The notes below the pieces were generated by a model. It ran no database searches. It saw only the letters and a list, made by a program, of their open reading frames with translations, and was not told where the DNA came from. From a virus, in IMG/VR virus record IMGVR_UViG_3300049719_000225, positions 34,116 to 98,115 of that record: a DNA stretch of 64,000 nt; one strand, given 5' to 3'. This document shows positions 28,379-51,241 of the stretch, piece by piece (position 1 is the first letter of the stretch; every line of letters begins with the position of its first letter). Made by a program: the position numbers and the translations under genes.

Positions 28379-29260
28379 ATGATCCCTGCGCTCATCATTG
28401 ACGGCAGATGCCTCTTCGACCGAGCCTGGTGGGCAGCCAGAAACTCCGAGGAGTTGGGTGAGTATCCGAGTCACATTGTGTCCGCAGGGGCCGCTATTGC
28501 CAGTCTTGCCTGCCTCCTGGGACCTGGTGGAAGACTACCGTATGAGCCCACGCACCTGCTTGTGAGCTGGGATGGGCCAGAGGCGAAGACGATCAAGCCG
28601 CGTCCAGAGAAAGCCGCCGATCACGGTCCTGATCTGGCCTTCTTCAAGAGTCTCCTGCCACTGCTTGTGGGGGGAGCCCATTACGAGGTGCCCACAGGAG
28701 TGTTTGGCGAGAGTGACGATGTCGTGGCCACCGCAGTGGAGTTGTACAAGGACAGGTACAAGCTCACCATCCTCAGCTCGGACAAGGACCTGCAGCAACT
28801 CGTGCGTGAGGCCAGCTACTTCAATCTGCAGACGCAACAGGAGGTGACAGAGGAGGACGTTCAGGTGCGTTGGCATGTGGGTAGACCCAGTCACCTGGCG
28901 CTGTACCTTGCACTAGAAGGCGACCCCAAGGATGGTGTGGATGGCACCGACAAGATCGGGGCAAAGGGGGCGAAGCGGCTGCTGGAAGGCATGGGCGACG
29001 TTCCTGTCACCGAAGCCCTCGCTCTTCTCCTGCCCCAATTGAACCCCCTGCAGCGGGATCAACTTTACAGCTCGTTGGAACTCACCCTCCTGCGCAGGGA
29101 CCTTCCAGGTGTGCCAGAGCCAGCTCCAATCAATTTGGCAGGCTTCGACATGCTTGATGAGGCAGGCATTCAGGGGTCCGCTAGAAACGTCTGGGGCCAG
29201 CTTCTTGGCAGGTCTAAGGCTCACACCGTGCTGCCTGATCTCACCGAGTACGAAAGGTGA
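28379..29260 (+). CDS. 5'-3' exonuclease / RNase H-like, PIN (FEN) fold
   Basis: 293 aa. The N-terminal LIIDGRCLFDRA, then GESDDVVATAV, LTILSSDKDLQQLV and GDPKDGVDGTDKIG give the acidic metal-binding residues and the helix-hairpin-helix region of flap/5'-exonucleases, as in T4 RNase H. The likely role is removal of RNA primers or flaps in replication and repair. The next gene starts 27 nt downstream. Confidence 0.82.
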   Translation: MIPALIIDGRCLFDRAWWAARNSEELGEYPSHIVSAGAAIASLACLLGPGGRLPYEPTHLLVSWDGPEAKTIKPRPEKAADHGPDLAFFKSLLPLLVGGAHYEVPTGVFGESDDVVATAVELYKDRYKLTILSSDKDLQQLVREASYFNLQTQQEVTEEDVQVRWHVGRPSHLALYLALEGDPKDGVDGTDKIGAKGAKRLLEGMGDVPVTEALALLLPQLNPLQRDQLYSSLELTLLRRDLPGVPEPAPINLAGFDMLDEAGIQGSARNVWGQLLGRSKAHTVLPDLTEYER

Positions 29261-29287
29261 GTTCTTCTTCGGGAACAGTTACATACA

Positions 29288-30061
29288 ATGGCTATCAACA
29301 CCAACCTCAAGGATCTCACCCCCGCTTCCCAACGGTTCAAGCAGGAGATCATCCTCCCGTCCGGCGGCTTCAGCAACCCCACAGCCTTCCCACAGGGTAA
29401 GCTCACCGTGTACCCCTGGGACATGGGCACCAGTGAGTGGATGGTGTCTGCGCCAAGGACCAACGAACTCCTCTACATGACCCAGCTTGTGGGGCGTCTC
29501 ACACATCTCCCCACAGACACGGTGAAGACGTTGGTGGCGAGCGAGCTTCCTCTCATCGTCATGGTGGCCCGGGCGCTGACATTCGAGGACAACCGTGTGG
29601 AGTACACAGCCGTCTGCCCGCACTGTCGCACGGCGCAGACAAAGGTATCGCTCCAGATTCCCAATTCTCTGGAGAAGGTGGCTGTGAAGGCCGCAGACTA
29701 CACGCACGACACCATCGTTCTGCCAGTGAGCAAGGATGAGGTGTCCATCAAGCCCGCCACAGTGAACGAGCAGGAAGCGGCACGCAACCGTCCTGAGAGA
29801 TACCAGAAGGTGCTGAGCAACGTCGAGGCCTCGGCCCTGGCCGCTGTTCGTGGCATCGGTGGTGGCACTCCTGACCATCAGGATCAGCTCGTGCAGTGGT
29901 ATCGTGCGCTGTCACCCACTGACGCTGAGTTCCTCGTCACCGAGGTGGCCAAGGCCAACCCGGGCGTCAGCACCTCCATCAAGCACCTGTGCGACAATCC
30001 GTCGTGCGCCAGAGAGTTCACCTACGAGATGAACCTGGCGACGGACTTTTTTCGCAGCTGA
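29288..30061 (+). CDS. Baseplate hub / tail-assembly protein with zinc-binding cysteines
   Basis: 257 aa. It has CPHC near residue 117 and CDNPSC near 239, two Cys pairs that could bind one zinc, and an MVSAPRTNELLY segment. The shape is like T4 gp26/gp51-type hub-assembly proteins; I am not certain of the family. The last codons are GAC TTT TTT CGC AGC TGA. A second open frame continues from this site (see 30054), suggesting programmed frameshifting. Confidence 0.6.
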   Translation: MAINTNLKDLTPASQRFKQEIILPSGGFSNPTAFPQGKLTVYPWDMGTSEWMVSAPRTNELLYMTQLVGRLTHLPTDTVKTLVASELPLIVMVARALTFEDNRVEYTAVCPHCRTAQTKVSLQIPNSLEKVAVKAADYTHDTIVLPVSKDEVSIKPATVNEQEAARNRPERYQKVLSNVEASALAAVRGIGGGTPDHQDQLVQWYRALSPTDAEFLVTEVAKANPGVSTSIKHLCDNPSCAREFTYEMNLATDFFRS

Positions 30062-30227
30062 GGCCATAGCGTTCCTGCGGCGTGCCTGGATCCGCCGCTT
30101 TAACTTGGCCGCATCAGGCTTGGGAATGAGCCTGGACCTCACAAGGGTGCCTGACTATGTCATCCCCTGGCTGGAGGAAGTGACAAATCAGGTACAGTCA
30201 GAGATAAAATCTTCGAGGAAGGGGTGA
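30054..30227 (+). CDS. Frameshift extension of the hub/tail-assembly gene (57 aa)
   Basis: In the +1 frame this stretch encodes AAEAIAFLRRAWIRRFNLAA and ends EIKSSRKG. It has no early start codon and opens only 21 nt before the junction. The sequence looks like real protein (amphipathic helix). Entry is plausible by a +1 slip of tRNA-Phe from TTT to TTC at TTT TTT CGC, or by a -2 slip on the T run, giving a fused ~315-aa product. Confidence 0.55.
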   Translation, partial: AAEAIAFLRRAWIRRFNLAASGLGMSLDLTRVPDYVIPWLEEVTNQVQSEIKSSRKG

Positions 30228-30683: not shown

Positions 30684-31213
30684 GCTACTTCGAGCCATAC
30701 CATCGGAGCGGCGAGGGCTCAATGCCCTCCGCTCACAAGCGATTCAAGAACACCAGCAAGGCCCCGTCGCCATTCCTGAAGGAGGTGGTGAGGTTCTGCA
30801 CTCCCACTGGCACGGGGAAGGTGCGTATCTGGTTCAAACGCCACAAGGGACGGTCGTTCTATGGTCGGTGCTGGCACTCCCGCCATTATGTCTCCGCTCA
30901 CATCGCCGATCCCTATATGCTCCAGGTGCCCTATCACGGTGCTGGATCGGCAGGCAACGGCTACTTGCCATGGAACGCTTGCACCTGGGAGGAGGCTGTG
31001 GTAGCCCTTGTCGCTCATGAGATCAGACACATCTGGCAGAGTCACAATCCCCGTGGCCACAAGGTGTGGGGAGCCCGTGGGCGGCAATCAGAGCGAGAGT
31101 GTGATGCCTACGCCATCCGCAAGATGCGGGAGTGGCGGTGGGAGCGCGCTGCTCGCACAGTGGTTAGACGTAAGGGGTGGGCGCTGGCCCGCTGGAGGAC
31201 TTTGGGTGCATAA
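30680..31213 (+). CDS. SprT-like zinc metalloprotease domain protein, 177 aa
   Basis: The start is ATG 30680 (MSYFEPYHRSGEGSMP), overlapping the previous stop. VALVAHEIRHIWQSHNP gives H-E-x-x-H at about residues 114-118, and ERECDAYAIRKMR supplies a downstream E/D-A-x-A pattern as in SprT/minigluzincin proteins. Basic C-terminus. Its role could be DNA-protein crosslink processing or virion protein cleavage; unproven. The stop codon lies inside the following tRNA gene. Confidence 0.7.
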   Translation: MSYFEPYHRSGEGSMPSAHKRFKNTSKAPSPFLKEVVRFCTPTGTGKVRIWFKRHKGRSFYGRCWHSRHYVSAHIADPYMLQVPYHGAGSAGNGYLPWNACTWEEAVVALVAHEIRHIWQSHNPRGHKVWGARGRQSERECDAYAIRKMREWRWERAARTVVRRKGWALARWRTLGA

Positions 31214-31280
31214 GCTCAATGGCAGAGCTGCCGGATTCTAAACCGAGCGGTTGTGGGTTCGACTCCCACTGCGCCCTCCA
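31204..31280 (+). tRNA. tRNA-like gene with unusual anticodon arm
   Basis: Acceptor GGGTGCA/TGCGCCC, D-arm GCTC-AATGGCA-GAGC, T-arm GTGGG-TTCGACT-CCCAC and encoded CCA are intact, with canonical GG and TTC. The anticodon arm GCCGG-ATTCTAAA-CCGAGC pairs only with a bulged A and leaves an 8-nt loop, so decoding (TCT or CTA) is uncertain. Its 5' end overlaps the protease stop by 10 nt. Confidence 0.65.
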
Positions 31281-39618: not shown

Positions 39619-39706
39619 TGGAGGAAGGAGTGGGATTCGCACCCACGGACGGTTGCCCGTCTCCAGTTTTCAAGGCTGGTGCAATAAGCTGCTCTGCCAC
39701 CCTTCC
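39619..39706 (-). tRNA. tRNA-Ser(TGA)
   Basis: Loop CTTGAAA, variable arm, acceptor GGAAGG(G)/CTCCTTCC-type pairing, CCA; T-loop TGCGAAT (G55). Confidence 0.88.
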
Positions 39707-39709
39707 AAA

Positions 39710-39785
39710 TGGTACCGGTGGCAGGAGTTTCGCCCGCAACCCTCTGTTCCGAAGACAGATGCTCTATACGTTGAGCTACACCGGT
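39710..39785 (-). tRNA. tRNA-Arg(TCG), copy 1
   Basis: Acceptor ACCGGTG/CACCGGT, TCTGT-CTTCGGA-ACAGA, CCA. The T-loop CGAAACT is divergent (G55, A56). Confidence 0.88.
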
Positions 39786-39954
39786 GTATGGGGTGCTAGT
39801 TATATGAAAATAGCACCCATGAAAACGAAAGAAAAGATCGCTGAACTTACGCTGTTAAACCCTACTTGGGGTTACAAGCTTGTTTCGCGAATAGCGAATG
39901 GAATGGTACCCCCACCGAGACCGGTCCATCGCTATCTATGGGTACTGGGCGAGA
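39786..39954. other. tRNA-array spacer with a partial tRNA-Thr copy
   Basis: 39921-39950 is identical over 30 nt to the 5' half of tRNA-Thr(TGT) at 41210-41239, a recent partial duplication. The rest is A/T-richer; an open frame beginning MKTKEKIAELTLLNPTWG is present but I do not call it. Confidence 0.6.
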
Positions 39955-40030
39955 TGGAGCTGGTCGTGGGACTTGCACCCACTGCCTGTAGTTTACGAAA
40001 CTACCGCTCTTCTATACGAGCTACACCAGC
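39955..40030 (-). tRNA. tRNA-Thr(CGT), copy 1
   Basis: Acceptor GCTGGTG pairs with GACCAGC apart from the inner pairs; GTAGT-TTCGTAA-ACTAC; CCA. D-loop GTATAGAA (A18 G19), T-loop TGCAAGT (G55). Confidence 0.92.
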
Positions 40031-40035
40031 AAAAG

Positions 40036-40108
40036 TGGTCCGCATGGAAGGAATTGCACCCCCACTAAACGCTCCGAAGGCGCTTGTGCTATCTGTTACA
40101 CCACACGG
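40036..40108 (-). tRNA. tRNA-Arg(TCG), copy 2
   Basis: Acceptor CCGTGTG/CATGCGG (two wobble pairs), AGCGC-CTTCGGA-GCGTT, CCA. D-loop AACAGATA, T-loop TGCAATT. Confidence 0.85.
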
Positions 40109-40115
40109 GCAAAAG

Positions 40116-40191
40116 TGGTCCCGGCGACAGGAGTTGCACCCGCATAGGGCCGCTTAGAAGACGGCTGCCTTTCTGTTCGAGCCACACCGGG
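40116..40191 (-). tRNA. tRNA-Arg(TCT)
   Basis: Acceptor CCCGGTG/CGCCGGG, GCCGT-CTTCTAA-GCGGC, CCA; D-loop contains CAG, T-loop TGCAACT (G55). Confidence 0.9.
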
Positions 40192-40314
40192 AAATTCGTA
40201 GGGACCTCCAACTGGCTAGGAAGGAGTTCGGTCGCCAACCATCCCAAAGGAGGTGTTCACCCCAGGGGGTTTCACCCCATACCCTGGATGTAAACAGTTT
40301 GGTAAGTTTCGGCC

Positions 40315-40527
40315 ATGGCCAAAAACATAGCCGTTGTGGAGATGCAGGGACGGTCGTTGGTCGTGTGTGGCGACGACATGGTCACCACCATCAACCCACA
40401 GTGGATACAGTCGATGATGAGAGACATGCTGGTGCAGGATGCTGATGAGAAACAGGAGCAGACTTACGGCACCAGTTCCTCATGTACGAGGACTGAGCTT
40501 CCCTACATCGTTGACAGCGGCACTTGA
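40315..40527 (+). CDS. Hypothetical protein, 70 aa, inside the tRNA array
   Basis: MAKNIAVVEMQGRSLVVCGD looks like genuine protein for the first ~45 residues; the last part runs antisense through the end of an HNH gene. Not recognised. The only long rightward frame in the array. Confidence 0.4.
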   Translation: MAKNIAVVEMQGRSLVVCGDDMVTTINPQWIQSMMRDMLVQDADEKQEQTYGTSSSCTRTELPYIVDSGT

Positions 40528-40924
40528 ACCGGAGGTAGGATCTCCGTGTGCCATGCTCCTGGGGCCTGTTTTGAAGTCTCACCCGTAAGTTTTCTCCGGT
40601 GACATGTTGTTTGAACTTTTCTATGTCAGAAAACCACAGGGGTTTGCCTACAGTTTTCTTTCTATGACAATTTGAGCATCTCACATCACACTTGGAAATT
40701 TCCTCAGAAATTTTGACCCAAGACACGGCGTTGCTTACCATTACGCTAACGTTGACCAACTTATCACACGGATTTTTATGGTCGAAATCTAACACCCGTA
40801 TATCCCGCTCACCGCAATCAACACAGGGGTGGGTTAACAGATGTTCTACGATACGAACCCTGTTGCTCAACCGATAGAGCTTCTGTAGAGCATAGATGTG
40901 TTTTCGCGATCTTCGTGACCTCAT
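40391..40924 (-). CDS. HNH homing endonuclease
   Basis: 177 aa from ATG 40924. HPCVDCGERDIRVLDFDHKN and CDVRCSNCHRKKT form the HNH with two C-x2-C pairs; the C-terminus carries an HGTRRSYLRFKCRCQRC module, the same small domain that is N-terminal in the 12960 enzyme. It starts 13 nt upstream of tRNA-Arg(GCG) on the array strand. Confidence 0.82.
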   Translation of the reverse strand: MRSRRSRKHIYALQKLYRLSNRVRIVEHLLTHPCVDCGERDIRVLDFDHKNPCDKLVNVSVMVSNAVSWVKISEEISKCDVRCSNCHRKKTVGKPLWFSDIEKFKQHVTGENLRVRLQNRPQEHGTRRSYLRFKCRCQRCREAQSSYMRNWCRKSAPVSHQHPAPACLSSSTVSTVG

Positions 40925-40936
40925 ACACCGTAAGAA

Positions 40937-41012
40937 TGGTACCTCCACTCAGATTCGCACTGGGATTTTTTCCTTCGCAGGGAAATGTCCTATCTGGTTG
41001 GACGATGGAGGT
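40937..41012 (-). tRNA. tRNA-Arg(GCG)
   Basis: Acceptor ACCTCCA/TGGAGGT, TTTCC-CTGCGAA-GGAAA, CCA; D-loop AACCAGATA, T-loop TGCGAAT. Confidence 0.9.
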
Positions 41013-41017
41013 ATAAG

Positions 41018-41093
41018 TGGGGCGATGTACGGGAATTGCACCCGCTTACCCGGCTTCACAGGCCAGTACACTACTGAATATGCTAACATCGCC
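41018..41093 (-). tRNA. tRNA-His(GTG)
   Basis: CTGGC-CTGTGAA-GCCGG with an 8-bp acceptor GGCGATGT/ACATCGCC including the G-1 expected for histidine; CCA. D-loop ATTCAGTA, T-loop TGCAATT. Confidence 0.92.
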
Positions 41094-41097
41094 ATAA

Positions 41098-41160
41098 GTG
41101 GCGGGATTGGCCGTTGTTTCGGCCCACGCTGCAGCGCCCGATTCCGAGTCGGAACCCCGT
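41098..41160 (-). pseudogene. tRNA remnant
   Basis: Acceptor CGGGGTT/AATCCCG and CCA pair, but only ~60 nt separate the ends and no 7-nt anticodon loop can be drawn. Confidence 0.45.
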
Positions 41161-41163
41161 AAG

Positions 41164-41239
41164 TGGAGCCCAGTGACGGATGTGCGCCGTCCATGTCCGG
41201 ATTACAAAGCCGGTCCATCGCTATCTATGGGTACTGGGC
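41164..41239 (-). tRNA. tRNA-Thr(TGT)
   Basis: Acceptor GCCCAGT/ACTGGGC, CCGGC-TTTGTAA-TCCGG, CCA; T-loop CGCACAT (G55). A 30-nt piece of its 5' half is duplicated at 39921. Confidence 0.9.
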
Positions 41240-41315
41240 AAAGTGTATCGTATGGAATACAGGGATACGGCACAGAATTACGACCGTCCGGTTTGGTATT
41301 GCATACGATGCAAGC

Positions 41316-41391
41316 TGGAGCTAGTGACTGGATTTGCACCAGCTGCCTGCGGTTTACGAAACCGCCGCTCTTCTAAACGAGCTACACTAGC
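41316..41391 (-). tRNA. tRNA-Thr(CGT), copy 2
   Basis: GCGGT-TTCGTAA-ACCGC, acceptor GCTAGTG/CACTAGC, CCA; D-loop GTTTAGAA, T-loop TGCAAAT. Closely related to copy 1. Confidence 0.9.
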
Positions 41392-41395
41392 AAAG

Positions 41396-41470
41396 TGGTC
41401 CTCACGGCAGGGGTTGCACCTACATCCAAGCGATTATGGGTCGCCTGCTCTACAATTAAGCTACGCGAGG
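41396..41470 (-). tRNA. tRNA-Met/Ile2(CAT), copy 1
   Basis: GGCGA-CCCATAA-TCGCT, acceptor CCTCGCG/CGTGAGG, CCA; D-loop AATTGTA (T18 G19), T-loop TGCAACC (G55). CAT could be elongator Met, initiator or lysidine-Ile. Confidence 0.88.
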
Positions 41471-41481
41471 AAATTAGATTG

Positions 41482-41526
41482 CGGACAGGGCCGGGCATTA
41501 CCCGAGGACCTGTCCGCTTTATTTTC
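41482..41526. terminator. Intrinsic terminator
   Basis: GCGGACAGG / CCTGTCCGC stem with an inner GGG/CCC and a T-rich run on the + side. Confidence 0.65.
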
Positions 41527-41530
41527 TAGG

Positions 41531-41605
41531 TTATTCCATGTAGTCGAGTGCCGCAATGAGCGACAACCCTGCCACACAGACGATACCGGTGATGAGGTCG
41601 ATCAT
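41531..41605 (-). CDS. Small membrane peptide, 24 aa
   Basis: MIDLITGIVCVAGLSLIAAL is a single hydrophobic helix; AAAGGA lies 6 nt before the ATG. A typical tiny phage membrane protein; function unknown. Confidence 0.5.
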   Translation of the reverse strand: MIDLITGIVCVAGLSLIAALDYME

Positions 41606-41676
41606 CGGTGTCCTTTCATGTTGTAGCCCGCACGCTAGGTTTGGGCTGTTGATCGTGCCAAGGGCAGGCACGAAGG

Positions 41677-41753
41677 TGGTGCCGAGGAAGGGTCTTGCAC
41701 CCTCACTGGCGCAGATTTTAAGTTTGCGGCCTCTTCTTTTGGGCTACCCCGGC
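41677..41753 (-). tRNA. tRNA-Leu(TAA), short variable arm
   Basis: Acceptor GCCGGGG/CCTCGGC, loop CTTAAAA, CCA. It lacks the long variable arm usual for Leu. T-loop TGCAAGA (G55). The upstream HNH gene ends inside its 5' half. Confidence 0.82.
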
Positions 41754-42296
41754 AAAAAACTGTAGCCACTCTGGGTCTTCCTTTGGAATCCATCCCTGAG
41801 CGAACATTTTTGTCATTGTTTTTGAAGTTCCTTGGGGAAGATCAAACAACTTCATCAACCGATATGATCCATTTTTCTTTCCAGTGCTAGCAGGACGCTG
41901 GTCAAAAACTTCTTGAGCTTTCCACCAATGGTTTTCTCCCACGTTAGGGTTGTCCCACGGACGTTTGAGGAGGCTCGGGTTGCACTTCCCGCGCATACGG
42001 TCTGAAAGATTCTTACGAAGCAAATCACCAAGGGGAGTATCGTACAAATCTTTGGCATTTTCAGCGGGAGTGCCCCAGTACAAATGGCGAGGATTGGAGC
42101 ACGCAGCATTATGGCAGGCGTGACAGCATTGTATTTTGCTTCTCTTTGGAACAGTCGTTTTCAGATAATGGGCGAGAAGCCCTCGGCATGAGACAGAGTT
42201 TGTGCCTATTTCTACACAAGACTCTTCCAAGTTCAGATGCCGCTGACGATCTTCTTTTATCTGAGTGATGTATTCCTCTATGGGACGATAGGTCAT
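41718..42296 (-). CDS. HNH homing endonuclease (HNH_3-like)
   Basis: 192 aa. VCCHACHNAACSNPRHLYWG-like motif (CCHACHNAACSNPRHLYWG) with TPAENAKD is typical of HNH_3-type phage enzymes, and a C-terminal repeat-like QGTSKTMTKMFAQGW region suggests DNA recognition. The last 12 codons lie inside tRNA-Leu(TAA). Confidence 0.85.
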   Translation of the reverse strand: MTYRPIEEYITQIKEDRQRHLNLEESCVEIGTNSVSCRGLLAHYLKTTVPKRSKIQCCHACHNAACSNPRHLYWGTPAENAKDLYDTPLGDLLRKNLSDRMRGKCNPSLLKRPWDNPNVGENHWWKAQEVFDQRPASTGKKNGSYRLMKLFDLPQGTSKTMTKMFAQGWIPKEDPEWLQFFAGVAQKKRPQT

Positions 42297-42452
42297 GGTC
42301 TAACTACCGTCTACTATTTTTGTTTACTAATGTCCAGAAAGCAAGGGTTGGGCATCCAGTGTCTGGCAGGTTGCAACCCACCTGTCTTTGATGGTGGGCT
42401 GTGCGTCCACCCGACTGCGCGTCCGCAGTCGTACTCCCCAACTACCTCAGAG
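42297..42452. other. Array spacer with degenerate tRNA-like sequence
   Basis: Contains GCAGGTTGCAACC-type T-arm-like pieces but no complete cloverleaf. Confidence 0.3.
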
Positions 42453-42548
42453 TGGTCTGCGCCCTCAGGCCTTCAGGTCGTTTCGCTTATCGCCGCCATA
42501 CCAGGCAGCGGGCTACTCCACTTATCCGGTGTTCCGTACAGGCGCAGA
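42453..42548 (-). pseudogene. Degenerate type II tRNA-like gene
   Basis: The acceptor TCTGCGCC/GGCGCAGA is perfect over 8 bp and CCA is present, but neither T-arm nor anticodon loop is regular. It lies 1 nt from tRNA-Leu(CAA). Confidence 0.45.
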
Positions 42549-42549
42549 G

Positions 42550-42635
42550 TGGTCGCCCAGGAGGGAATCGCACCCTCACGCCCGAAGGCACGCCGTTTTG
42601 AGTGGCGCATGTCTACTGTTCCAATCACTGGGCGA
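42550..42635 (-). tRNA. tRNA-Leu(CAA)
   Basis: Loop CTCAAAA, variable arm GCC-TTCG-GGC, acceptor CGCCCAG/CTGGGCG, CCA; T-loop TGCGATT. Confidence 0.9.
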
Positions 42636-42637
42636 AA

Positions 42638-42711
42638 TGGCGCCCGCGCGGAGAGTCGCACTCCGATTACAGCCTTGAGAGGGCCGTGAACTACTCTTAT
42701 TCGACGCGGGC
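42638..42711 (-). tRNA. tRNA-Glu(CTC)
   Basis: CGGCC-CTCTCAA-GGCTG, acceptor GCCCGCG/CGCGGGC, CCA; D-loop AATAAGAGTA, T-loop TGCGACT. Confidence 0.9.
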
Positions 42712-42715
42712 AAAT

Positions 42716-42793
42716 TGGTCCCGGGAACAGGATTCGCACCCGCACGCCTTTCGGCAGGAGATTTTCCCGCGTCTACTCTTCCACCACCCCGGG
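42716..42793 (-). tRNA. Leu-type tRNA with irregular anticodon loop
   Basis: Acceptor CCCGGGG/TCCCGGG, variable arm GCCGAAAGGC, CCA and T-loop TGCGAAT are good. The loop between GCGGG and CCTGC is AAAATCT, without U33, so the anticodon is unclear. Confidence 0.6.
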
Positions 42794-42824
42794 AAATCGT
42801 GCTGAGTTTGTGACAATACCAGAG

Positions 42825-43481
42825 CTAAATGGTCCGAAAATAATAGGCATCGGCACTGTTGTCCCAGCGGCACTCATACCCCATATCCTGCAGCACCTGC
42901 TTCAGGTCCTTCATTGAGGCCCCTCCAGAGTAGTGTCCAAAATCTGCAGTTTCATTGACCTCCAAGAAAATAATCCGGGGCCTCAGGGACCCGAGGCCCC
43001 TGAGCACGAAAACCTCAGCCCCCTGAACATCAATCTGGATGATGTCTATGGTGATGCCAGCGCGCCTGCAGAACTCATCCAGTCTCACACTGGGTACGTG
43101 GGTTGGGCTGTCGGTAAACCCTGCCGTTGTTCCGTGTTGGCCCAGCCGTTCAGCCCTCAGCTTTTCAGTCGATGGGAGAATTGAGCCGCTCGCCCTATTG
43201 GGGTCACTAGGAATGTTTGGCCAGAAATCCACCCCATTTTCATGGTCAGTGACAGCGGCCTGCACGAGTTCCACGCCTGTACCCTCCAGGAAAGTCCTGG
43301 AATATGCGTAGTTTACGGTGTCACACTCAAAGGTGATCACCCGTGCATCTGGATACCGTTTCTTGAGGCTGAGGGCCTCATCACCGTCGTAGGTGCCCAC
43401 CTCCACGATCACCCTTGGTGGAACGCCCAGGGCGTCGAACTCACTCAGTGCCAATTCAAATCCTGGGGAACAGAAGCTCAT
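42825..43481 (-). CDS. FkbM-family methyltransferase
   Basis: 218 aa. VIVEVGTYDGDEALSLKK (motif I), ITFECDTVNY, and IDIIQIDVQGAEVFVLRGLG (motif IV-like) are the FkbM SAM-dependent signature. FkbM enzymes O-methylate sugars and other small hydroxyl groups. With two glycosyltransferases in the window, capping of a phage-made or host surface glycan is plausible. A cargo gene within the tRNA array on the array strand. Confidence 0.88.
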   Translation of the reverse strand: MSFCSPGFELALSEFDALGVPPRVIVEVGTYDGDEALSLKKRYPDARVITFECDTVNYAYSRTFLEGTGVELVQAAVTDHENGVDFWPNIPSDPNRASGSILPSTEKLRAERLGQHGTTAGFTDSPTHVPSVRLDEFCRRAGITIDIIQIDVQGAEVFVLRGLGSLRPRIIFLEVNETADFGHYSGGASMKDLKQVLQDMGYECRWDNSADAYYFRTI

Positions 43482-43652
43482 ATGCCTAACTAGAATAGTT
43501 CCGCCTCAGGTCGCTCAGCAGACATCCACGCTTCCTGTCGCACTTACCTGCCGGGTAATTACTCCCAGATGCCAAGGTGCGATTATGTGAGCTGGCACAT
43601 CAAAGCTTCTACTCACGACGGTCGTGGTACTCTACTGCCCTCAGTGACGGAT
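43482..43652. other. Spacer, nothing assigned
   Basis: No complete gene or cloverleaf seen between the methyltransferase and the minihelix tRNA remnant. Confidence 0.3.
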
Positions 43653-43700
43653 TGGTCGGCATGAGGGGAATCGCACCCCTCTTACGGAACACGCATGCCG
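43653..43700 (-). pseudogene. tRNA minihelix (acceptor + T-arm only)
   Basis: Acceptor CGGCATG/CATGCCG and T-arm AGGGG-TGCGATT-CCCCT with CCA are perfect, but D- and anticodon arms are replaced by 13 nt. Total 48 nt: a deletion product or a stable minihelix RNA. Confidence 0.6.
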
Positions 43701-43705
43701 GTGAT

Positions 43706-43790
43706 TGGTGCCCTAGGGGAGAGTCGCACTCCCAAGGCTCACTCCTTCTAAGGGAGGCCGCTCTTCTATTCGCGGTGAACCACACGGGCA
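43706..43790 (-). tRNA. tRNA-Leu(TAG)
   Basis: Loop CTTAGAA, CCA; T-loop TGCGACT. The acceptor has two mismatches. The upstream HNH gene ends within its 5' end. Confidence 0.78.
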
Positions 43791-44542
43791 AATTGTCTAT
43801 TCCAGTAACCTCGGGGTTTGGTTTGCACTCCAAGTTCGTGGCAAAGTTTCCTGATAGCCGTTTCACCTACACCATATTCTTTGGCGATGTGGGTTATGGG
43901 TTTACTATCAATAGTGCTCTGAAGCTGTTCGCGTGTCGGTCGCTGAAACTTTTGTGAGCCTGCGTGAGAGCAGGTATAGGAGCAAAAGCGTGGTCGTGTT
44001 GTGGGCGTGCCACAGTGAGCACATGGCTTAATGAGTTTAGCTTTAAGCCGTCCCATACGAAGTTTCATTTTTGGTGGATTGGGTTGTCGTTTCCTCGGAC
44101 GTTGGCTGTGGCAATTTGGGCAAATAAACTGCACATTTTCTGGGCGACAGTCATAGGTCACGCCATCTCGATGATCAACTTCAAGCACCAGAGGTTTAGA
44201 GTTCCAGACATCGGCAATACCACAAACTTCACATTTATACTCCCGTCCTGATTCTACCAAAGCACGGCGTAGATTTTGGGCTCTGGTACGGTCCCCATTA
44301 TGTCTGTTGAACACTAGCACTTCTTTCCAATGTAATTTGTTAGGTCCTCCTCGATGGTTTGGCCCTCGATTAGCTCTTGAACCAAGAAAATGGGCAGTGC
44401 TGATACCAAACCTCTTTATGAGAGATTTAATGTGCTGATGACGGCCCCCAGTGACAGGAAAACCAAGTCGTCGTATCACCTCTGAGACAGAGATAGACTG
44501 GGCCACGGCGAGTTGCATTTCAGTTTTAGAGTAAACACGCAT
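43766..44542 (-). CDS. HNH homing endonuclease with N-terminal wHTH
   Basis: 258 aa from ATG 44542. The N-terminal VYSKTEMQLAVAQSISVSEV...GRHQHIKSLIKRFGISTAHF is the winged-helix module typical of these enzymes; the HNH core has CEVCG, LEVDHRDG and ICPNCHS; a C-terminal zinc ribbon (PCAHCG...FCSYTC) precedes a second HTH. The last ~8 codons run into tRNA-Leu(TAG). Confidence 0.88.
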   Translation of the reverse strand: MRVYSKTEMQLAVAQSISVSEVIRRLGFPVTGGRHQHIKSLIKRFGISTAHFLGSRANRGPNHRGGPNKLHWKEVLVFNRHNGDRTRAQNLRRALVESGREYKCEVCGIADVWNSKPLVLEVDHRDGVTYDCRPENVQFICPNCHSQRPRKRQPNPPKMKLRMGRLKAKLIKPCAHCGTPTTRPRFCSYTCSHAGSQKFQRPTREQLQSTIDSKPITHIAKEYGVGETAIRKLCHELGVQTKPRGYWNRQFARVVHRE

Positions 44543-44572
44543 GATAGTAACTAGCGTACTTACTAGAACGAT

Positions 44573-44657
44573 TGGTCCCGACGAGAGGACTCGCACCTCC
44601 AAGGTATTTCTACCGCTACGTTCTGAGCGTAGTTCGTTTACATTTCGACACGCCGGG
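44573..44657 (-). tRNA. tRNA-Leu(CAG)
   Basis: CTACG-CTCAGAA-CGTAG, variable arm GGTAGAAATACC, acceptor CCCGGCG/CGTCGGG, CCA; T-loop TGCGAGT. Confidence 0.9.
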
Positions 44658-44714
44658 AAAGTTTACTGGAACGCTATGTTTTACTGCTCAGTAAAACTAT
44701 GTTTTGGTGTAGAA

Positions 44715-44799
44715 TGGTGCGGATGACAGGCTTCGCTCCTGCACGGTGTTACCCCAACGCTTCTCAGGCGCTGCTGTCTACTAATTTCAGCACATCCGC
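44715..44799 (-). tRNA. tRNA-Leu(GAG)
   Basis: AGCGC-CTGAGAA-GCGTT, long variable arm, acceptor GCGGATG/CATCCGC, CCA; D-loop has TAG, T-loop AGCGAAG. Confidence 0.9.
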
Positions 44800-45105
44800 G
44801 AAATTGGTTACATTGGATTGGTGCGCTTCACAGTGGTCTGCGCGGCGGTGCGCCAGAAGGCGCGGAAATTGGGTTCATTGGATTGCGCTGCTGTGCAGGG
44901 CGTAGCAGTGCATAGCGTCGGGAAATTGGGTTCATTGGATTGCGCGGCGTGGCCGCTCAGTGCCCAGCGTAGCATTGCGTGGCTGTGCTCGGCTGTGCAT
45001 TGCTACGATTCGCACGGCGAGGAAATTGGTTACATTGGATTGCGCGGCGTGGCTTGGCAGTGCTGTGCTCTGCATTGCATCGCCGAAATTGGTTACCTTG
45101 GATTG
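44800..45105. repeat. Five-copy degenerate repeat region
   Basis: GAAATTGG(T/G)T(A/T)C(A/C)TTGGATTG recurs at 44800, 44864, 44931, 45021 and 45085, separated by GC-rich stretches built from GCGTGGC/GCATTGC words. Copies 3 and 4 also share GCGCGGCGTGGC. No gene found. Confidence 0.8.
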
Positions 45106-45151
45106 GATGGATTGCATTGCTCAGCGTAACGCTGCATGGCGAAGACCGAAA

Positions 45152-45739
45152 TTACATCTTGATGGGCGTCCAGTGGATCACCTTGAACTTGCCGAACGGT
45201 CCCTTGCGGTCGGGCCTGAAGTCGCCCAGGCCTATCTTGCTGCCTGCGTGGTCAACCAACGTGCGGACCAGGTCGATGGCGGCCTCGGACTCGTCCAGCG
45301 TGAGGGTGAAGGCGAGATTCCAGGTGTCGAAGCGAGGCCTGTGGGCCATGATGCGACCGTTGGTGTTGGGGTTGACGACAGACCGGCTGTCCACCTCGAA
45401 GTCCTTGACCCGCTTGCCGCCGCTGGTGAGCGGGCACTCAAGCTCGTCCAGGGCCAGGAAGGACGGCACCAGGCTGCTCTTCTGGGTGGTCACCTTGCTC
45501 TTGCCGCTCTTCAGGTACTTGCCCGCGTCGATGATGCAGCGGAACATGTTGGGGCCAGGGATGAACATGTAGCCGTCCTTGTTCTTGTAGGCCTTTGTCT
45601 CGGCCTGCTCCCGGGGTATGCCTTTGTCTCCTCTAAGAGCGGAACGGTGGCCACCCTCGACTTGCCGTTCAGCTGCCTCGGTGAAGCGATTCATCAGCAG
45701 GGGTGTCGTGCCCTGGATCTCTACCTTGATGGTTGTCAT
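45152..45739 (-). CDS. Unknown protein, 195 aa, paralogue of the 62709 gene product
   Basis: The start is ATG 45739 (MTTIKVEIQGTTPLLMNRF); GTTTACA lies 36 nt upstream. It ends with KIGLGDFRPDRKGPFGKFKV, a G-x-G-x-x-R-P...G-x-F loop also present in the 62709 protein (GVGEWRPEKNGSHGMFSV). The N-terminal strand plus C-terminal Gly-rich loop recall RAMP (Cas7-like) folds, but this is only a shape argument. Function unknown. Confidence 0.6.
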   Translation of the reverse strand: MTTIKVEIQGTTPLLMNRFTEAAERQVEGGHRSALRGDKGIPREQAETKAYKNKDGYMFIPGPNMFRCIIDAGKYLKSGKSKVTTQKSSLVPSFLALDELECPLTSGGKRVKDFEVDSRSVVNPNTNGRIMAHRPRFDTWNLAFTLTLDESEAAIDLVRTLVDHAGSKIGLGDFRPDRKGPFGKFKVIHWTPIKM

Positions 45740-45783
45740 GCGGAGAGGTTGGATCACAGGTTCCTGTTTTGTAAACAACAAAA

Positions 45784-45857
45784 TGGAGGTCCCATCCAGA
45801 GTTGCACTGGACCAACCCGAATACCAATCGGGAGCTACGCTAGCTTAGCTTTGGGAC
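45784..45857 (-). tRNA. tRNA-Thr(GGT)
   Basis: Acceptor GGTCCCA/TGGGACC, CCCGA-TTGGTAT-TCGGG, CCA; T-loop TGCAACT (G55). The upstream HNH gene ends 23 nt inside it. Confidence 0.9.
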
Positions 45858-46374
45858 CATATCGGTAAGTACGCACGCTAATGTTTCTTCTGCCAAAATT
45901 TTTAGTGAGGGAGTGGCAGTTTGGGCACAAAACCTTAAGGTTTTCCGGTCTGCTATTTGCTGCATTTCCATCTTCATGGTGAACTTGGACTGGTATGTTT
46001 TTGGTGAACTCGTTGACCATGTTCCACCCGCATTTCTCACACTTATTACCCGCCCTCTCCAGCACCCAATCCCTAACGGGGTCCTTTAGATCAAAATTAC
46101 CCGTATCATAGTGACCCTGTATCTCTCCCTTTAGCCACCCCTCTACGAGAGAGCGGGACTTCTTTTTTCGCTGGAGAGAAATGATTTCAGGAAAACTCAG
46201 AAAGTGGTCGGTGCTTACTCCCCTTTCAAGACACACTTTTCTAATTAAATTAATAATGGACTGGCATTTAGTCTTATAGCCGAGATTACTGACGGCCTCG
46301 GATATGTGGGTGCTACCCGAAATGATAGCCTGAAGTTCCTCTAGGGGCATCTTGTACAATTTAGATATTATCAT
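45835..46374 (-). CDS. HNH homing endonuclease
   Basis: 179 aa. The N-terminal wHTH-like KMPLEELQAIISGSTHISEAV...GVSTDHFL, then HNH with KCEKCGW, VQVHHEDGNAANSRPENLKVLC and PNCHS. The final 8 codons lie in tRNA-Thr(GGT). Confidence 0.88.
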   Translation of the reverse strand: MIISKLYKMPLEELQAIISGSTHISEAVSNLGYKTKCQSIINLIRKVCLERGVSTDHFLSFPEIISLQRKKKSRSLVEGWLKGEIQGHYDTGNFDLKDPVRDWVLERAGNKCEKCGWNMVNEFTKNIPVQVHHEDGNAANSRPENLKVLCPNCHSLTKNFGRRNISVRTYRYGPKAKLA

Positions 46375-46418
46375 AGCGTAACTACTCCTAATATCGAAAG
46401 AACTGCGCTACCATAAAA

Positions 46419-46490
46419 TGGTCGCAGGCACGGGTGCTGCCCCCGCTTGACAGACCTTATGAGAGTCCGCTGGTTGCTGAACCTCCTGCT
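46419..46490 (-). tRNA. tRNA-Met(CAT), copy 2
   Basis: GGACT-CTCATAA-GGTCT, T-arm GCGGG-GGCAGCA-CCCGT (G55), CCA. The terminal acceptor pair is mismatched, which may indicate an initiator-type tRNA. Confidence 0.78.
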
Positions 46491-46495
46491 ACAAC

Positions 46496-46571
46496 TGGTG
46501 GACCCGGTGGGCTTTGCTCCCACGACCTACTGATTAAGAGTCAGCTGCTCTGCTGGCTGAGCTACGAGTCC
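46496..46571 (-). tRNA. tRNA-Lys(CTT)
   Basis: GCTGA-CTCTTAA-TCAGT, acceptor GGACTCG/CGGGTCC, CCA; D-loop AGCCAGCA, T-loop AGCAAAG. Confidence 0.92.
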
Positions 46572-46618
46572 AAATTATCACGTACACCATATAAAAGCGG
46601 TTTATCCTGTTTACGAGA

Positions 46619-46693
46619 TGGTACCCCAGACAGGATTCGCACCTGCAACCTTCTCCTTAGGACGGAGTTGCTCTATCTTTTGAGCTACTAGGG
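46619..46693 (-). tRNA. tRNA-Arg(CCT)
   Basis: Loop GTCCTAA, acceptor ACCCTAG/CTGGGGT, CCA; D-loop AAAAGATA, T-loop TGCGAAT. Confidence 0.88.
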
Positions 46694-46753
46694 TATAATT
46701 GTTTTGCCGTTTTACGGCGGTGGCAGTTGGTGCACCTAACTACAGACAGTATG

Positions 46754-46829
46754 TGGTGCCCCCGCACGGACTCGCACCGTGATCTCAGCCTTCGGAGGGC
46801 CGTATTCGATCTAGTTGAAATACGTGGGC
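46754..46829 (-). tRNA. tRNA-Arg(CCG)
   Basis: CGGCC-CTCCGAA-GGCTG, CCA; D-loop AACTAGATC, T-loop TGCGAGT. One acceptor mismatch. Confidence 0.88.
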
Positions 46830-46837
46830 AAATAAAT

Positions 46838-46913
46838 TGGTGGGCTCACGGGGATTCGCACCCCGAGTCGTCGGTTTAAAAGACCGCTGCTTTGACTGTT
46901 TAGCTATGAGCCC
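46838..46913 (-). tRNA. tRNA-Lys(TTT)
   Basis: GCGGT-CTTTTAA-ACCGA, acceptor GGGCTCA/TGAGCCC, CCA; D-loop AACAGTCA, T-loop TGCGAAT. Confidence 0.92.
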
Positions 46914-47417
46914 GTAAAGGACACGAGGATGGAGAATCGAACTCCAAAGGGACCATCGCTCAGTTGGCTTACGCAACGCCTTCTGACCTTGGTGCGTTTC
47001 CCCTCACCAGACCCGTGAAAGTTTTGTGACGGCAAATAGCCGCGATTCTGTCAGGTTCCCATTTCTGGGCACATCAGGCTGGCGGGCTCCACTGCAATGG
47101 TGCCACCGCAAGACCAATTTCCTGTGCTGTACATTTGACTAAGCAGCAACCCGGCTTCACAGGGGAGCACTACCCTCAGCCTATTTGCCTTGCACCTACC
47201 GCCACCAACGTGGGTGGTGGTAATGACGAGTGCAAGCACTCTCCCACCGAACGGCTGCTCAGGTGTCGCGAACTTCCTCAGGTTGGGCTGGTTTCCCCTG
47301 CAGCGTGGACCTTGCTCAACCCGCGTACAACTATGCCTGTCACAAAGGGAGGCGGCTGGTGCCCTGAGGGTTTCACCCGCCCCGCGAGTTTTACACGGGG
47401 ATTGCGTTGCCGCCAAA
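46914..47417. other. Array spacer with canonical-T-loop tRNA fragment
   Basis: 46930-46946 is a T-arm GGAG-TTCGATT-CTCC with the canonical TTC, without CCA and without an obvious acceptor partner. Around 47350-47400 another partial T-arm/anticodon-like piece ends in a TGG. No convincing protein gene. Confidence 0.4.
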
Positions 47418-47491
47418 TGGCTGCGGAGGCTGGATTCGCACCAGCACTAGACGGGTCAAAGCCGCCGGGCCTACTATTAACCTACTCCGCA
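47418..47491 (-). tRNA. tRNA-Gln(TTG)
   Basis: GGCGG-CTTTGAC-CCGTC, acceptor TGCGGAG/CTCCGCA, CCA; D-loop AATAGTA, T-loop TGCGAAT. Confidence 0.9.
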
Positions 47492-47497
47492 ATGAAA

Positions 47498-47575
47498 TGG
47501 TCAGGGTGACAGGACTTGCACCTGCATAATTTCCGTTCCGAGCGGAATCGCCGACTATTTGGCACCACACCCTGA
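47498..47575 (-). tRNA. tRNA-Pro(CGG)
   Basis: TTCCG-CTCGGAA-CGGAA, acceptor CAGGGTG/CACCCTG, CCA; T-loop TGCAAGT. Confidence 0.9.
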
Positions 47576-47580
47576 TAATT

Positions 47581-47640
47581 CGAGGGAACAAACGGACAGG
47601 GTATTGTTTCGTTCACGGAAGTAACCCTGACCTACGCCAC
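47581..47640 (-). ncRNA. Repeated structured element, copy A
   Basis: GTGGCGTAGGTCAGGGT, TACTTCC loop and ACCCTG close a stem CAGGGT/ACCCTG. The stem sequence differs from copy C (ACGGT/ACCGT) yet pairs, suggesting a conserved RNA fold. Confidence 0.45.
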
Positions 47641-47697
47641 TCGAAGATAAACCAGCCCGAGGCCGTTGATCATACGGCGGGTCAGGATGACAGGAAA

Positions 47698-48096
47698 TTA
47701 TTTCTTCTCCAGATGCGAGTCGCTCGTCGCACCGAGCACCTTCTCAATCAGCATCGACACCTTCATGCCGAACAGGGATCCAGCCACAGTGGCGATGGTG
47801 TAGGGGATGAAGAGGGTGAAGCTCATGTTGGCCGTCACGAGGCGCTGGAACGTGAGGAACCAGATGCCGTTCGAGAACACGGCGGCGATCATGTGGTAGG
47901 TCATGTTGTCGCGGTTGCGGCTGCGGCTGACGATGGAGAAGCTGACGTTTTGAGCGAAGGCCAGCAGCATCAGGATGCCAGCACCCGTGATGTAGAGCAA
48001 GAAGGTGTCCCTTTTCAGAGTGAGGAGAAGGATGCCTAGCCAGATGGCTGTGGCGGCAACAAGCGTGTAGGCGAGGTTTCTCTCGGAGGACTTCAT
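47698..48096 (-). CDS. Membrane protein, 132 aa, four TM helices
   Basis: The start is ATG 48096 (MKSSERNLAYTLVAATAIWL). Four hydrophobic stretches are visible (LAYTLVAATAIWLGILLL; LYITGAGILMLLAFAQ; MIAAVFSNGIWFLTF; LFIPYTIATVAGSLFG). I recognise the pattern as a recurrent phage membrane protein of unknown role. It starts 14 nt after the phosphoesterase gene stop. Confidence 0.65.
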   Translation of the reverse strand: MKSSERNLAYTLVAATAIWLGILLLTLKRDTFLLYITGAGILMLLAFAQNVSFSIVSRSRNRDNMTYHMIAAVFSNGIWFLTFQRLVTANMSFTLFIPYTIATVAGSLFGMKVSMLIEKVLGATSDSHLEKK

Positions 48097-48109
48097 CCCT
48101 CTGAAGAAC

Positions 48110-49555
48110 TCAGACCAGTTCCGTGTGGGTGTACTGGCTGATGTTGTGCTGGAACCTGGCAATCGGTCCAGCGGTGAAATCGTACACCCAGGCCATAGCA
48201 CCACGCTTCTGGTGGTTGAATCCCTTGAGTCGATGCCACTCGTTGGGGGCGGTGAGGCCGGGGATGTACTCCACGCTCACCCCCTGCTCTTCCAGAGCGG
48301 CAGGTATGGAGCTGCCCTTGCGATGCTGATCCCCCAGGTGAAATTCCCGGTATTCGGTCTCAGCCCAATCTTTGCGGCACTCGTTGGCCATCAGTGATGC
48401 CAGTCTTATCTGGCTGACGGAATGACCGTGTTCATAGCCTATCAGAGTGCTGCCAAAGCGATGAAACTTGTAGGGGGACGACGTGGCGTTGATGTGTATG
48501 TTCTCGTCGTTCCTGAAATACGCCCTGAGCAAGTGCGCCAGGGTGAAGTCGGCCATCCTGCTGTGATTTCCAGGTATTTCGTAGATGAAAAGCTCCTTCG
48601 CCACCTCTCTGAGTTTCTTCACCATCTCGATGGCGATGGCCTCGGCCCGCTCGTAAACGTGGTGCCAGGCTACGGCCTCAGGCTGGTTCGTTCCCGCAGT
48701 GGTGGTATGGAAGACAGTGTCCGAGTGAACGAAGTCGTTGCCGAACGGTAGGAAGGCCTGCTCGAACGGTCCAAACACCAACCCTTTCTCCGTGAGATCA
48801 TCGATTGCTGACATGATATGGGCGGCGGAAAGGTCAATGTTCCAGGGAGCATCCGCTTCTGGCCTCTCGCACAGGAGCCCGATGTGCGGATCCATGATGC
48901 AGATCTCAAAGGCACGTCGATAGGGAAGTTTCTTCTTGCGCAGCTCTGGGATGGGGAAGTGGGGCGCGTGCTCCTCAAGGCGCTTCAGGAGCGCCTGACC
49001 GGCGAGGATTTGCGGGCTCTTTCGTTTCAGCCACACCTTCACCTGCCACAGCTCCTCGTGGAAAGGTACGCTGCTGCCCCGGGTCCAGAGTGTTGATTGC
49101 TCACCGTGAAGGCCCGTGGAGATCTTTGCCTTGTCGCCTGCACCTCCAACCGTGGTGGCGGGCTCTCTCATGGCCACCTCCCACTTGTTTATCGTGTGCC
49201 GTTCGACCTCCCAGGTGGTCAGGTCCACCTTGGTTGCAGCCAGAAGCTGTTCGAGACTCTTAATCTGACTGGAACAGGAGGATGCGATTGCAGAATCCTT
49301 GTCTGTATCGAGAGTTACATGACGCTTGGGCTCAGCCTGTGGCACTCTAAGTGTGCACCCTGGTACCCGTTTTGGGAGTATTTCAAGCTGTTTACGCAGC
49401 CTGGAAAGGATGCCTCGTAAACTTGAAGAGGCGTACTCAGGGAACTGGGCCTTTAGATCTGACGGCCTCACTCCAGGATTGTCTCTCAGAATGTCTCGTA
49501 ATTTGTCGCAGTTTGTCGGCCCGTCATGCGGCGTTGGCATGGAGTAACTACTCAC
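48110..49555 (-). CDS. Metallophosphoesterase with N-terminal winged helix
   Basis: 481 aa. The N-terminal CDKLRDILRDNPGVRPSDLK region looks like a winged helix. The catalytic part has MDPHIG (D-x-H), FGNDFVH (G-N-D), IPGNHSRM (G-N-H), GYEHGHS and GDQHRKG in calcineurin-like order. Phage enzymes of this layout are usually DNA nucleases or phosphodiesterases of unknown substrate. It is followed directly by the membrane protein gene. Confidence 0.82.
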   Translation of the reverse strand: MSSYSMPTPHDGPTNCDKLRDILRDNPGVRPSDLKAQFPEYASSSLRGILSRLRKQLEILPKRVPGCTLRVPQAEPKRHVTLDTDKDSAIASSCSSQIKSLEQLLAATKVDLTTWEVERHTINKWEVAMREPATTVGGAGDKAKISTGLHGEQSTLWTRGSSVPFHEELWQVKVWLKRKSPQILAGQALLKRLEEHAPHFPIPELRKKKLPYRRAFEICIMDPHIGLLCERPEADAPWNIDLSAAHIMSAIDDLTEKGLVFGPFEQAFLPFGNDFVHSDTVFHTTTAGTNQPEAVAWHHVYERAEAIAIEMVKKLREVAKELFIYEIPGNHSRMADFTLAHLLRAYFRNDENIHINATSSPYKFHRFGSTLIGYEHGHSVSQIRLASLMANECRKDWAETEYREFHLGDQHRKGSSIPAALEEQGVSVEYIPGLTAPNEWHRLKGFNHQKRGAMAWVYDFTAGPIARFQHNISQYTHTELV

Positions 49556-49578
49556 GTACGGATAGAACAGATACCAAA

Positions 49579-49656
49579 TGGTCGGAATGGCGGGCTTTGC
49601 TCCCGCGACCTCACGGCCCCCAGCCGTGCGCTCTACTGAACTAAGCTACATTCCGA
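49579..49656 (-). tRNA. tRNA-Pro(GGG)
   Basis: CACGG-CTGGGGG-CCGTG, acceptor CGGAATG/CATTCCG, CCA; D-loop AGTTCAGTA, T-loop AGCAAAG. Confidence 0.9.
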
Positions 49657-49932
49657 AAGGGCCGCCTCTTTCAGCGGAGTCACACCACTCATTGGTTGCC
49701 GTTAAGCACCGTGACCAGCATTTAGGGGGCATACCCTCGCTCTGACACGGCCCTTTACCCAGGTGTCGGGATTAAATACAACCCCGCTACGGAGCGGGGA
49801 GGAGACGCATCACCTCCTTTCTTAACGGATGGGGTGCCGGTGCTCAGGCGGCTGGTGGTTGTCACTTGCGGTGGCCACCCCTTCGTCTGGAACCTTTCAG
49901 CTCCTGCAAGTAGGCACTTATCTAACCCCAAG
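49657..49932. other. Array spacer with hairpin and possible micro-ORF
   Basis: A CCCCGCT/AGCGGGG hairpin (49782-49799) with a T-rich left flank on the minus strand may terminate. A GTG-initiated 18-codon frame (VATASDNHQPPEHRHPIR) after GAAGGGG is possible but weak. Confidence 0.35.
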
Positions 49933-50009
49933 TGGTCGTCACGAAGGGACTCGCACCCCTGATCCTCTCCATGTCGAGGAGATGCCTTAGCTGCTGGGCT
50001 ACGTGACGA
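49933..50009 (-). tRNA. tRNA-Val(GAC)
   Basis: TCTCC-TCGACAT-GGAGA (C33), acceptor CGTCACG/CGTGACG, CCA; D-loop AGCAGCTA, T-loop TGCGAGT. Confidence 0.85.
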
Positions 50010-50071
50010 AATGGTTACGAAAAGCGCGGCGTGTTACCCTGGGCGGCTGTGAGCCGATCTTAACGCTGAAA

Positions 50072-50145
50072 TGGCTCCCAGGGAAGGATTCGCACCTCCA
50101 CGAAACGGGTCAGGGCCGTTGATGCTACTGTTACATTACCTGGGA
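50072..50145 (-). tRNA. tRNA-Gln(CTG)
   Basis: AACGG-CCCTGAC-CCGTT (C33), acceptor TCCCAGG/CCTGGGA, CCA; D-loop AACAGTA, T-loop TGCGAAT. Confidence 0.88.
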
Positions 50146-50721
50146 ATAAAGTCGCCCTGCCAGACAGGATGCTCCTGCACTTCCCGGGAGCGCTCTCCGG
50201 GATGTTCTTGGTGTTTGAACTACTGGCAAGATGGCTGCTAGGGAGGGACTCGCACCTTCATAATCCCGATTAACAGTCGGGGGCTCTACTATTGAGCTAC
50301 CTAGCAATGAAAGTTTTGAGTGTTCCTCTGCGTGACAGTTGGCGCATATAAGATCACATTTTCTAGCCTCTTCCCGAACGGCTTTCTGAGACACCCATTT
50401 TCTCAAGCCCGTTACGCCAATGTTTATTTTACGACCGTCACGTTTAACCAAGCACCTATTCCCTATCGGTTTTCTATGGTGAAAGTGAAGAGCATCTAAG
50501 CATCTTGAGTACCCACATCGCTTACATTTACCTCCGTGCTCTATTTTCAGAGTTGTTAAAAACTTCCTTCTATTTTCCCGTCGTTTCGACTTTGCGTACT
50601 CACGATACTCGTTTGTAGCATGCCAAGCTACTGTGCTTTTGGTGAGACCCGTGATGGAGCAAATTTCCCTGCGGCTTTTGCCCTCTTTTAAGAACTGTTC
50701 CACTAATTCTCTAGTGCCCAT
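50131..50721 (-). CDS. HNH homing endonuclease reading through tRNA-Asn
   Basis: 196 aa. The N-terminal HTH (SRREICSITGLTKSTVAWHA), then HNH with KCKRCGYSRCLDALHFHHRKP and CDLICANCHAEEH. The frame remains open across the whole tRNA-Asn gene and stops inside tRNA-Gln(CTG), so the last ~60 residues are tRNA-derived. Confidence 0.85.
   Translation of the reverse strand: MGTRELVEQFLKEGKSRREICSITGLTKSTVAWHATNEYREYAKSKRRENRRKFLTTLKIEHGGKCKRCGYSRCLDALHFHHRKPIGNRCLVKRDGRKINIGVTGLRKWVSQKAVREEARKCDLICANCHAEEHSKLSLLGSSIVEPPTVNRDYEGASPSLAAILPVVQTPRTSRRALPGSAGASCLAGRLYSQVM
50232..50306 (-). tRNA. tRNA-Asn(GTT)
   Basis: CCCGA-CTGTTAA-TCGGG, acceptor TGCTAGG/CCTAGCA, CCA; D-loop AATAGTA, T-loop TGCGAGT. 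Confidence 0.92.
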
Positions 50722-50767
50722 GACTTAACTAAGAATGGTCATTTTTATGTCCCGCTCTCCAGGTGAA

Positions 50768-50842
50768 TGGTGGTTCGTGAGGGACTCGCACCCCCGTAGG
50801 TTGCATGTGACGCAACTATCCTAGCTGCTAGATGAACGAACC
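50768..50842 (-). tRNA. tRNA-Val(CAC)
   Basis: GTTGC-GTCACAT-GCAAC, acceptor GGTTCGT/ACGAACC, CCA; D-loop contains CTAG, T-loop TGCGAGT. Confidence 0.9.
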
Positions 50843-50848
50843 GGATAA

Positions 50849-50928: not shown

Positions 50929-50982
50929 AAAGTTTTACCCAGACGGGGGCCTTCAGCGACAGGCGGCAGCCCCACCTTCGTG

Positions 50983-51232: not shown

Positions 51233-51241
51233 ATAAAGGCT

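Follow-up and report, generated by a model that had tools for sequence, protein, structure and literature searches.

We analysed a 64-kb window of the 98,115-base IMG/VR virus record IMGVR_UViG_3300049719_000225 (positions 34,116 to 98,115), and find that a plus-strand gene at 29288-30061 is very probably the tail assembly chaperone (TAC) gene of a T4-like phage, with a programmed +1 frameshift at UUU_CGC that would yield a short product, TAC-N, and a long product, TAC-NC. Most ribosomes would stop at the TGA at 30059 and release TAC-N, and a minority, with UUU in the P site and CGC in the A site, would continue after tRNA-Phe slips by +1 from UUU (30050-30052) to UUC (30051-30053). The predicted slip product, TAC-NC, has 312 amino acids and comprises the TAC-N domain and a 57-residue TAC-C. 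We infer the slip itself, its rate and its P-site +1 nature from sequence comparison. The initial annotation, made from the window alone, had proposed a programmed frameshift in a tail-assembly gene, which is supported by comparison with relatives in which the site is invariant and the +1-frame extension is under selection.

The 257-amino-acid 0-frame protein belongs to the T4 gp26 family. It matches PF12322 with 26.7 bits (cut-off 24.5) over profile positions 56-218 of 219 and also matches phrog_150 (baseplate hub), and its AlphaFold2 (AF2) model, which covers TAC-N with a predicted local distance difference test score (pLDDT) of 90, has as its best viral fold match the SP-15 ‘baseplate hub subunit’ (E=2.5e-13). 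Following the literature, we take the gp26 family to be the TAC-N, or short tail assembly chaperone, of T4-like phages, from which the two products would be TAC-N and TAC-NC. In the original description of the gene as ‘hub/tail-assembly’, tail assembly holds and hub is an annotation name only. By analogy with characterized chaperone pairs, the product of 29288-30061 would have a chaperone role. The neighbouring genes, encoding a gp21-type protease, a gp23-type capsid protein and a 5'-3' exonuclease, together with the tRNA genes and the tape measure gene described below, mark the phage as a T4-like myovirus.

In the window the 0-frame ends GAC TTT TTT CGC AGC TGA, with a T run of six bases at 30047-30052, the shift site TTT TTT CGC at 30047-30055 (plus strand) and the stop codon at 30059-30061. 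The +1-frame extension, TAC-C (30048-30227, plus strand), translates from 30048 as FFAAEAIAFLRRAWIRRFNLAASGLGMSLDLTRVPDYVIPWLEEVTNQVQSEIKSSRKG, with 57 codons past the shift (30054-30224) before a TGA at 30225-30227. Upstream, this frame is closed five codons 5' of the shift site, with no start codon in between. Both the gene end and the start-less 57-codon frame leading from the T run are thereby confirmed as first annotated. An open frame of this length (~58 codons) is weak evidence in one genome alone, and TTTTTTCG occurs three times in the window (1.5 expected). TAC-C matched no family in PHROGs.

A direct search of phages and viral contigs with the 257-amino-acid protein gave no usable match. 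Relatives were reached via the major capsid protein and then a gp26 profile, giving 59 IMG/VR contigs, all from uncultured viruses; with the window these make 60 contigs, or 40 sequences in a non-redundant subset that includes it. Another set of 16 contigs was largely identical to the 59. All 59 gp26 relatives carry an in-frame TTTTTTCG followed by a homologous +1 extension of 55-67 codons, which places the shift site beyond chance and bears out the conservation that the initial annotation had suggested looking for. Because TAC-N identity to the window is only 28-40%, the shared site does not reflect recent copying. All eight bases of TTTTTTCG are invariant in the 40 non-redundant sequences, unlike every examined flanking position. 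The A-site codon in this subset is CGT (35 sequences), CGA (3) or CGC (2), and Phe is otherwise encoded in these genes by TTC more often than TTT (176:93, 65% TTC). TTT followed by CGN with a +1 extension occurs in 60/60 contigs, in keeping with the likeness to the UUU-CGU shift site of influenza PA-X drawn at the outset. The extensions align as one family (FFV.AA....(E).RW...F.LAW...G(L)..DL..VPD..L....W.NE..E.EN), with a ratio of non-synonymous to synonymous substitution rates (dN/dS) of ~0.1-0.3 in close pairs, and are under purifying selection. The 0-frame peptide past FFR is not conserved and ranges from nothing to ~50 unrelated residues.

A frame break at a homopolymer in one metagenomic contig might be an assembly or sequencing error or the mark of a decayed gene, but this is scarcely credible for a break found at the identical base in 59 other contigs, and in separately sequenced cultured phages (below), ahead of an extension under purifying selection. 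Independent translation of the extension, as a small gene of its own that starts at a non-canonical or internal codon and is coupled to the upstream stop, is also very unlikely. T4 does use separate short and long TAC genes, as cited in PMC10885494, and some GTG, TTG or ATG lies upstream in the +1 frame in about half of the sequences. However, in 21/40 sequences the +1 frame has no start codon of any kind from its last stop up to the site, and in 35/40 it has no ATG 5' of the site; conservation starts at the Phe-Phe of the shift site itself, and T6CG, though invariant, plays no part in initiation. Separate genes with their own starts, the contrary outcome named in the initial annotation, were looked for in the window's clade and not found.

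A sister clade that includes cultured phages bears on the direction of the shift. Bacillus phage SP-15, Listeria phage LIS04 and Streptococcus phage GXN1 carry homologues of the gene, matching by profile along almost all of TAC-N (E=6e-17). Each has its +1 extension at the corresponding Phe-Phe; the sites are TTT TTT CAC, TTT TTT AGT and TTC TTT CGT, respectively. A scan with these three genes returned 35 loci, among which 28 distinct sequences have a +1-frame extension. The second codon of the Phe pair is UUU in 25/28 and the A-site codon is CGN in 18/28; the first codon is TTC in seven (six with UUU_CGN and one with UUU_CAU), all of which have the +1 extension. This pattern fits a sister-clade signal of UUU_C, mostly UUU_CGN, at which tRNA-Phe would slip +1 from UUU to UUC. 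The TAC gene of SP-15 and LIS04 is flanked by the tail tube gene and a tape-measure-like gene, the position of lambda G/GT, which supports the chaperone role.

The same fusion could in principle be made by a -2 slip, with tRNA-Phe re-pairing two bases further 5' in U6 and an additional Phe in the product, for which there is a precedent in phage Mu (PMC5009743). Such re-pairing requires at least five U, and every one of the 60 contigs in the window's clade keeps the full U6. However, a homopolymer long enough for it is lost in part of the sister clade, where the seven TTC TTT CNN members retain the +1 extension; -2 is excluded in these because re-pairing would fall on CUU. Moreover, every member of the window's clade has C and G following the T run, although a -2 shift would have no need of them. 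We therefore consider -2 unlikely and, of the ‘+1 (or -2)’ originally offered, favour +1 in the window's clade, given that sister-clade members keep UUU_C(GN) after TTC and that these two bases do not vary. Slippage of RNA polymerase on the T run, leaving some mRNAs one U short, would predict a protein identical to the +1 product without any ribosomal shift, and the homopolymer is there to slip on. Six T is a short run for polymerase slippage, though; all 60 contigs have exactly six, without a single longer run, and the sister-clade TTC TTT CGT sites have none, making this explanation highly improbable.

Other relatives depart from the +1 arrangement at UUU. In the subgroup L175, L179, L180 and L185 the UUU has been lost in some members (TTT or TTC) and a CCC_AGT just 3' is kept, so that the +1 site may plausibly have moved to CCC_AGU. 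A -1-frame extension is present instead in Agrobacterium phage Atu_ph07, Pseudomonas phage PA5oct, the 595-kb LR756511 and three contigs, with the heptamer U_UUU_UUC at the same Phe-Phe in all except L188 (U_UUU_UUU). T4 has the Phe-Phe and no extension. Profile comparison shows homology between the sister-clade +1 extensions and those of the -1 set (E=3e-8), and gives a weaker match between the extension profiles of the window's clade and the sister clade (E=4e-5, 69% probability). A TAC-N tree with poorly supported deep branches suggests one or more changes of frameshift direction, because it places the -1 phages among the +1 phages, Atu_ph07 and PA5oct grouping with the window's clade (support 0.999). 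We regard it as an even call that UUU_CGN is an old, self-sufficient +1 signal for bacterial ribosomes in two large T4-like phage clades, at a site that has switched between +1 (UUU_CGN, apparently CCC_AGU in one subgroup), -1 (U_UUU_UUC) and no extension (T4) with the Phe-Phe kept. The SP-15 gene SP15_046 and a hypothetical protein of Mel-JY01 overlap the TAC-C region (L147 3644-3763 and L152 3195-3431) and are probably misannotated parts of the extension.

Several observations weigh against a +1-shifting chaperone gene in the window. The T6 is fully invariant in its clade, which a UUU_C +1 slip does not require, and a -2 shift or an E-site effect is possible there. The top PDB match of the TAC-N model, the HK97 tail assembly chaperone 2ob9, is a weak match to a solved TAC (E=0.35). 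The chaperone gene does not lie between tail tube and tape measure genes in the window, nor does it adjoin the latter: the gene for the tape measure protein, on which the chaperone presumably acts, is ~27 kb off on the opposite strand (57138-59669, minus strand; phrog_167 tail length tape measure, E=1e-13). Lastly, no universal stimulator was found among the 40 non-redundant sequences. A 5-bp stem 3' of the site is modestly enriched (13/40 against 6.6+/-2.3 expected), and the mean z for 3' RNA structure is ~-0.6 over the first 60 nucleotides versus ~0 further on. The window itself has no 3' stem at the site (z=0.33), and 3' structure is at most a helper in a subset. An internal Shine-Dalgarno sequence of the prfB type was rejected as a general stimulator, Shine-Dalgarno-like bases being present 5' of the shift site in only 7/40 sequences (controls 1-3). 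CGU makes up 88% of the Arg codons at the site versus 14% elsewhere in these genes, but slow decoding of CGU is not separable as a sole cause because the same U serves in the +1 frame as the middle position of a conserved Val codon.

The +1 slip that we favour would have its basis in codon-anticodon pairing, as tRNA-Phe with anticodon GAA reads both UUU and UUC and pairs better with UUC, an argument made for influenza PA-X (PMC3498833). The window phage encodes its own tRNA-Phe(GAA). In the window's clade, the invariant first UUU may exert its effect from the E site, where weak pairing has been proposed to promote +1 shifting (discussed in PMC3498833). Both influenza A PA-X (PMC3498833) and plant amalgaviruses (PMC5052127) use UUU_CGN as a +1 signal; the latter have all four CGN codons (PMC5052127), compared to three in the window's clade. 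These systems share with the window a P-site UUU, a C as the next base, an A-site CGN, a +1 extension and the lack of a universal stimulator. The window differs from them in belonging to bacterial ribosomes and to an assembly gene of a double-stranded DNA phage, and in the second UUU that precedes the site throughout its clade.

Frameshifted chaperone pairs of tailed phages, of which lambda G/GT is an example, mostly use -1, with -2 in Mu and ‘very likely +1’ in the archaeal virus HSTV-2; the short product covers the tape measure protein, and tail tube subunits are recruited by the scarce long product (PMC5009743). By analogy with G/GT, many TAC-N and few TAC-NC molecules would coat the tape measure protein of the window phage, and TAC-C would recruit the tube subunits. 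Like the lambda pair, the window has an extension in another frame that lacks a start, overlaps the end of the chaperone gene and is reached through a conserved slippery site, and the TAC genes of SP-15 and LIS04 share the lambda gene order as well. Unlike it, the window extension is in the +1 frame at UUU_CGN and the gene is remote from that of the tape measure.

TAC genes of T4-like phages were reportedly identified by Vladimirov, Gautam and Davidson in 2022 (Virology 566:9-15). As cited in PMC12846349, such genes have poly-T -1 signals, and T4 has the separate genes mentioned above, whereas the window's clade would use +1 at UUU_CGN. The TAC of Vandenendeviridae and Andersonviridae (phage Adele, PMC12846349) likewise comes from myoviruses and has a conserved T-rich slip site near the TAC-N end and an uninterrupted extension frame, but its signal is GTTTTT and its direction -1 (PMC12846349). 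We found no published use of UUU_CGN in a phage in the literature searched, which excluded the 2022 paper on T4-like TACs. Chaperone-pair frameshifting is known in phages, and the UUU_CGN shift signal there appears to be new. This would place a +1 signal described from animal and plant RNA viruses on bacterial ribosomes, and as some carriers grow on laboratory strains of Bacillus or Listeria, the slip-proneness of UUU_CGN could become approachable by bacterial genetics and ribosome structure. The presence of +1 and -1 shifts at one conserved Phe-Phe makes the evolution of frameshift direction traceable in a single gene family. The frameshift also calls for a correction of annotations, since the long chaperone is missing or split off as a spurious small gene in SP-15, LIS04, GXN1 and many metagenomic phages.

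The 5'-3' exonuclease gene of the window (28379-29260) directly precedes the TAC gene, whereas several relatives have a similar frame (DLIVDxNSLYARxxxAAQ) that starts just 3' of the extension. The pentamer GTTCT is found within 30 nucleotides upstream of the TAC start in 34/40 non-redundant sequences (29261-29265 in the window), and in 19 of these 34 it stands exactly 7 nucleotides before the start, in the place of a Shine-Dalgarno sequence; something resembling the latter is present in only 6/40. It was not found before the major capsid gene (0/55), and is a possible TAC-specific translation or promoter element. The window further encodes 33 tRNA genes (39619-55331, minus strand), including the tRNA-Phe(GAA) and Arg tRNAs with anticodons TCG, TCT, GCG, CCT and CCG. 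A tRNA-Arg(GCG) is unusual in bacteria, in which CGU and CGC are normally read by ACG. Besides these 33, one odd tRNA-like gene at 31204-31280 (plus strand), ~1 kb 3' of the shift site and away from the main tRNA cluster, has an irregular anticodon arm, for which ARAGORN gives a two-base anticodon ‘ct’ and the predicted fold an eight-base anticodon loop, AUUCUAAA. That it might be a natural frameshift-suppressor tRNA is only a thought.
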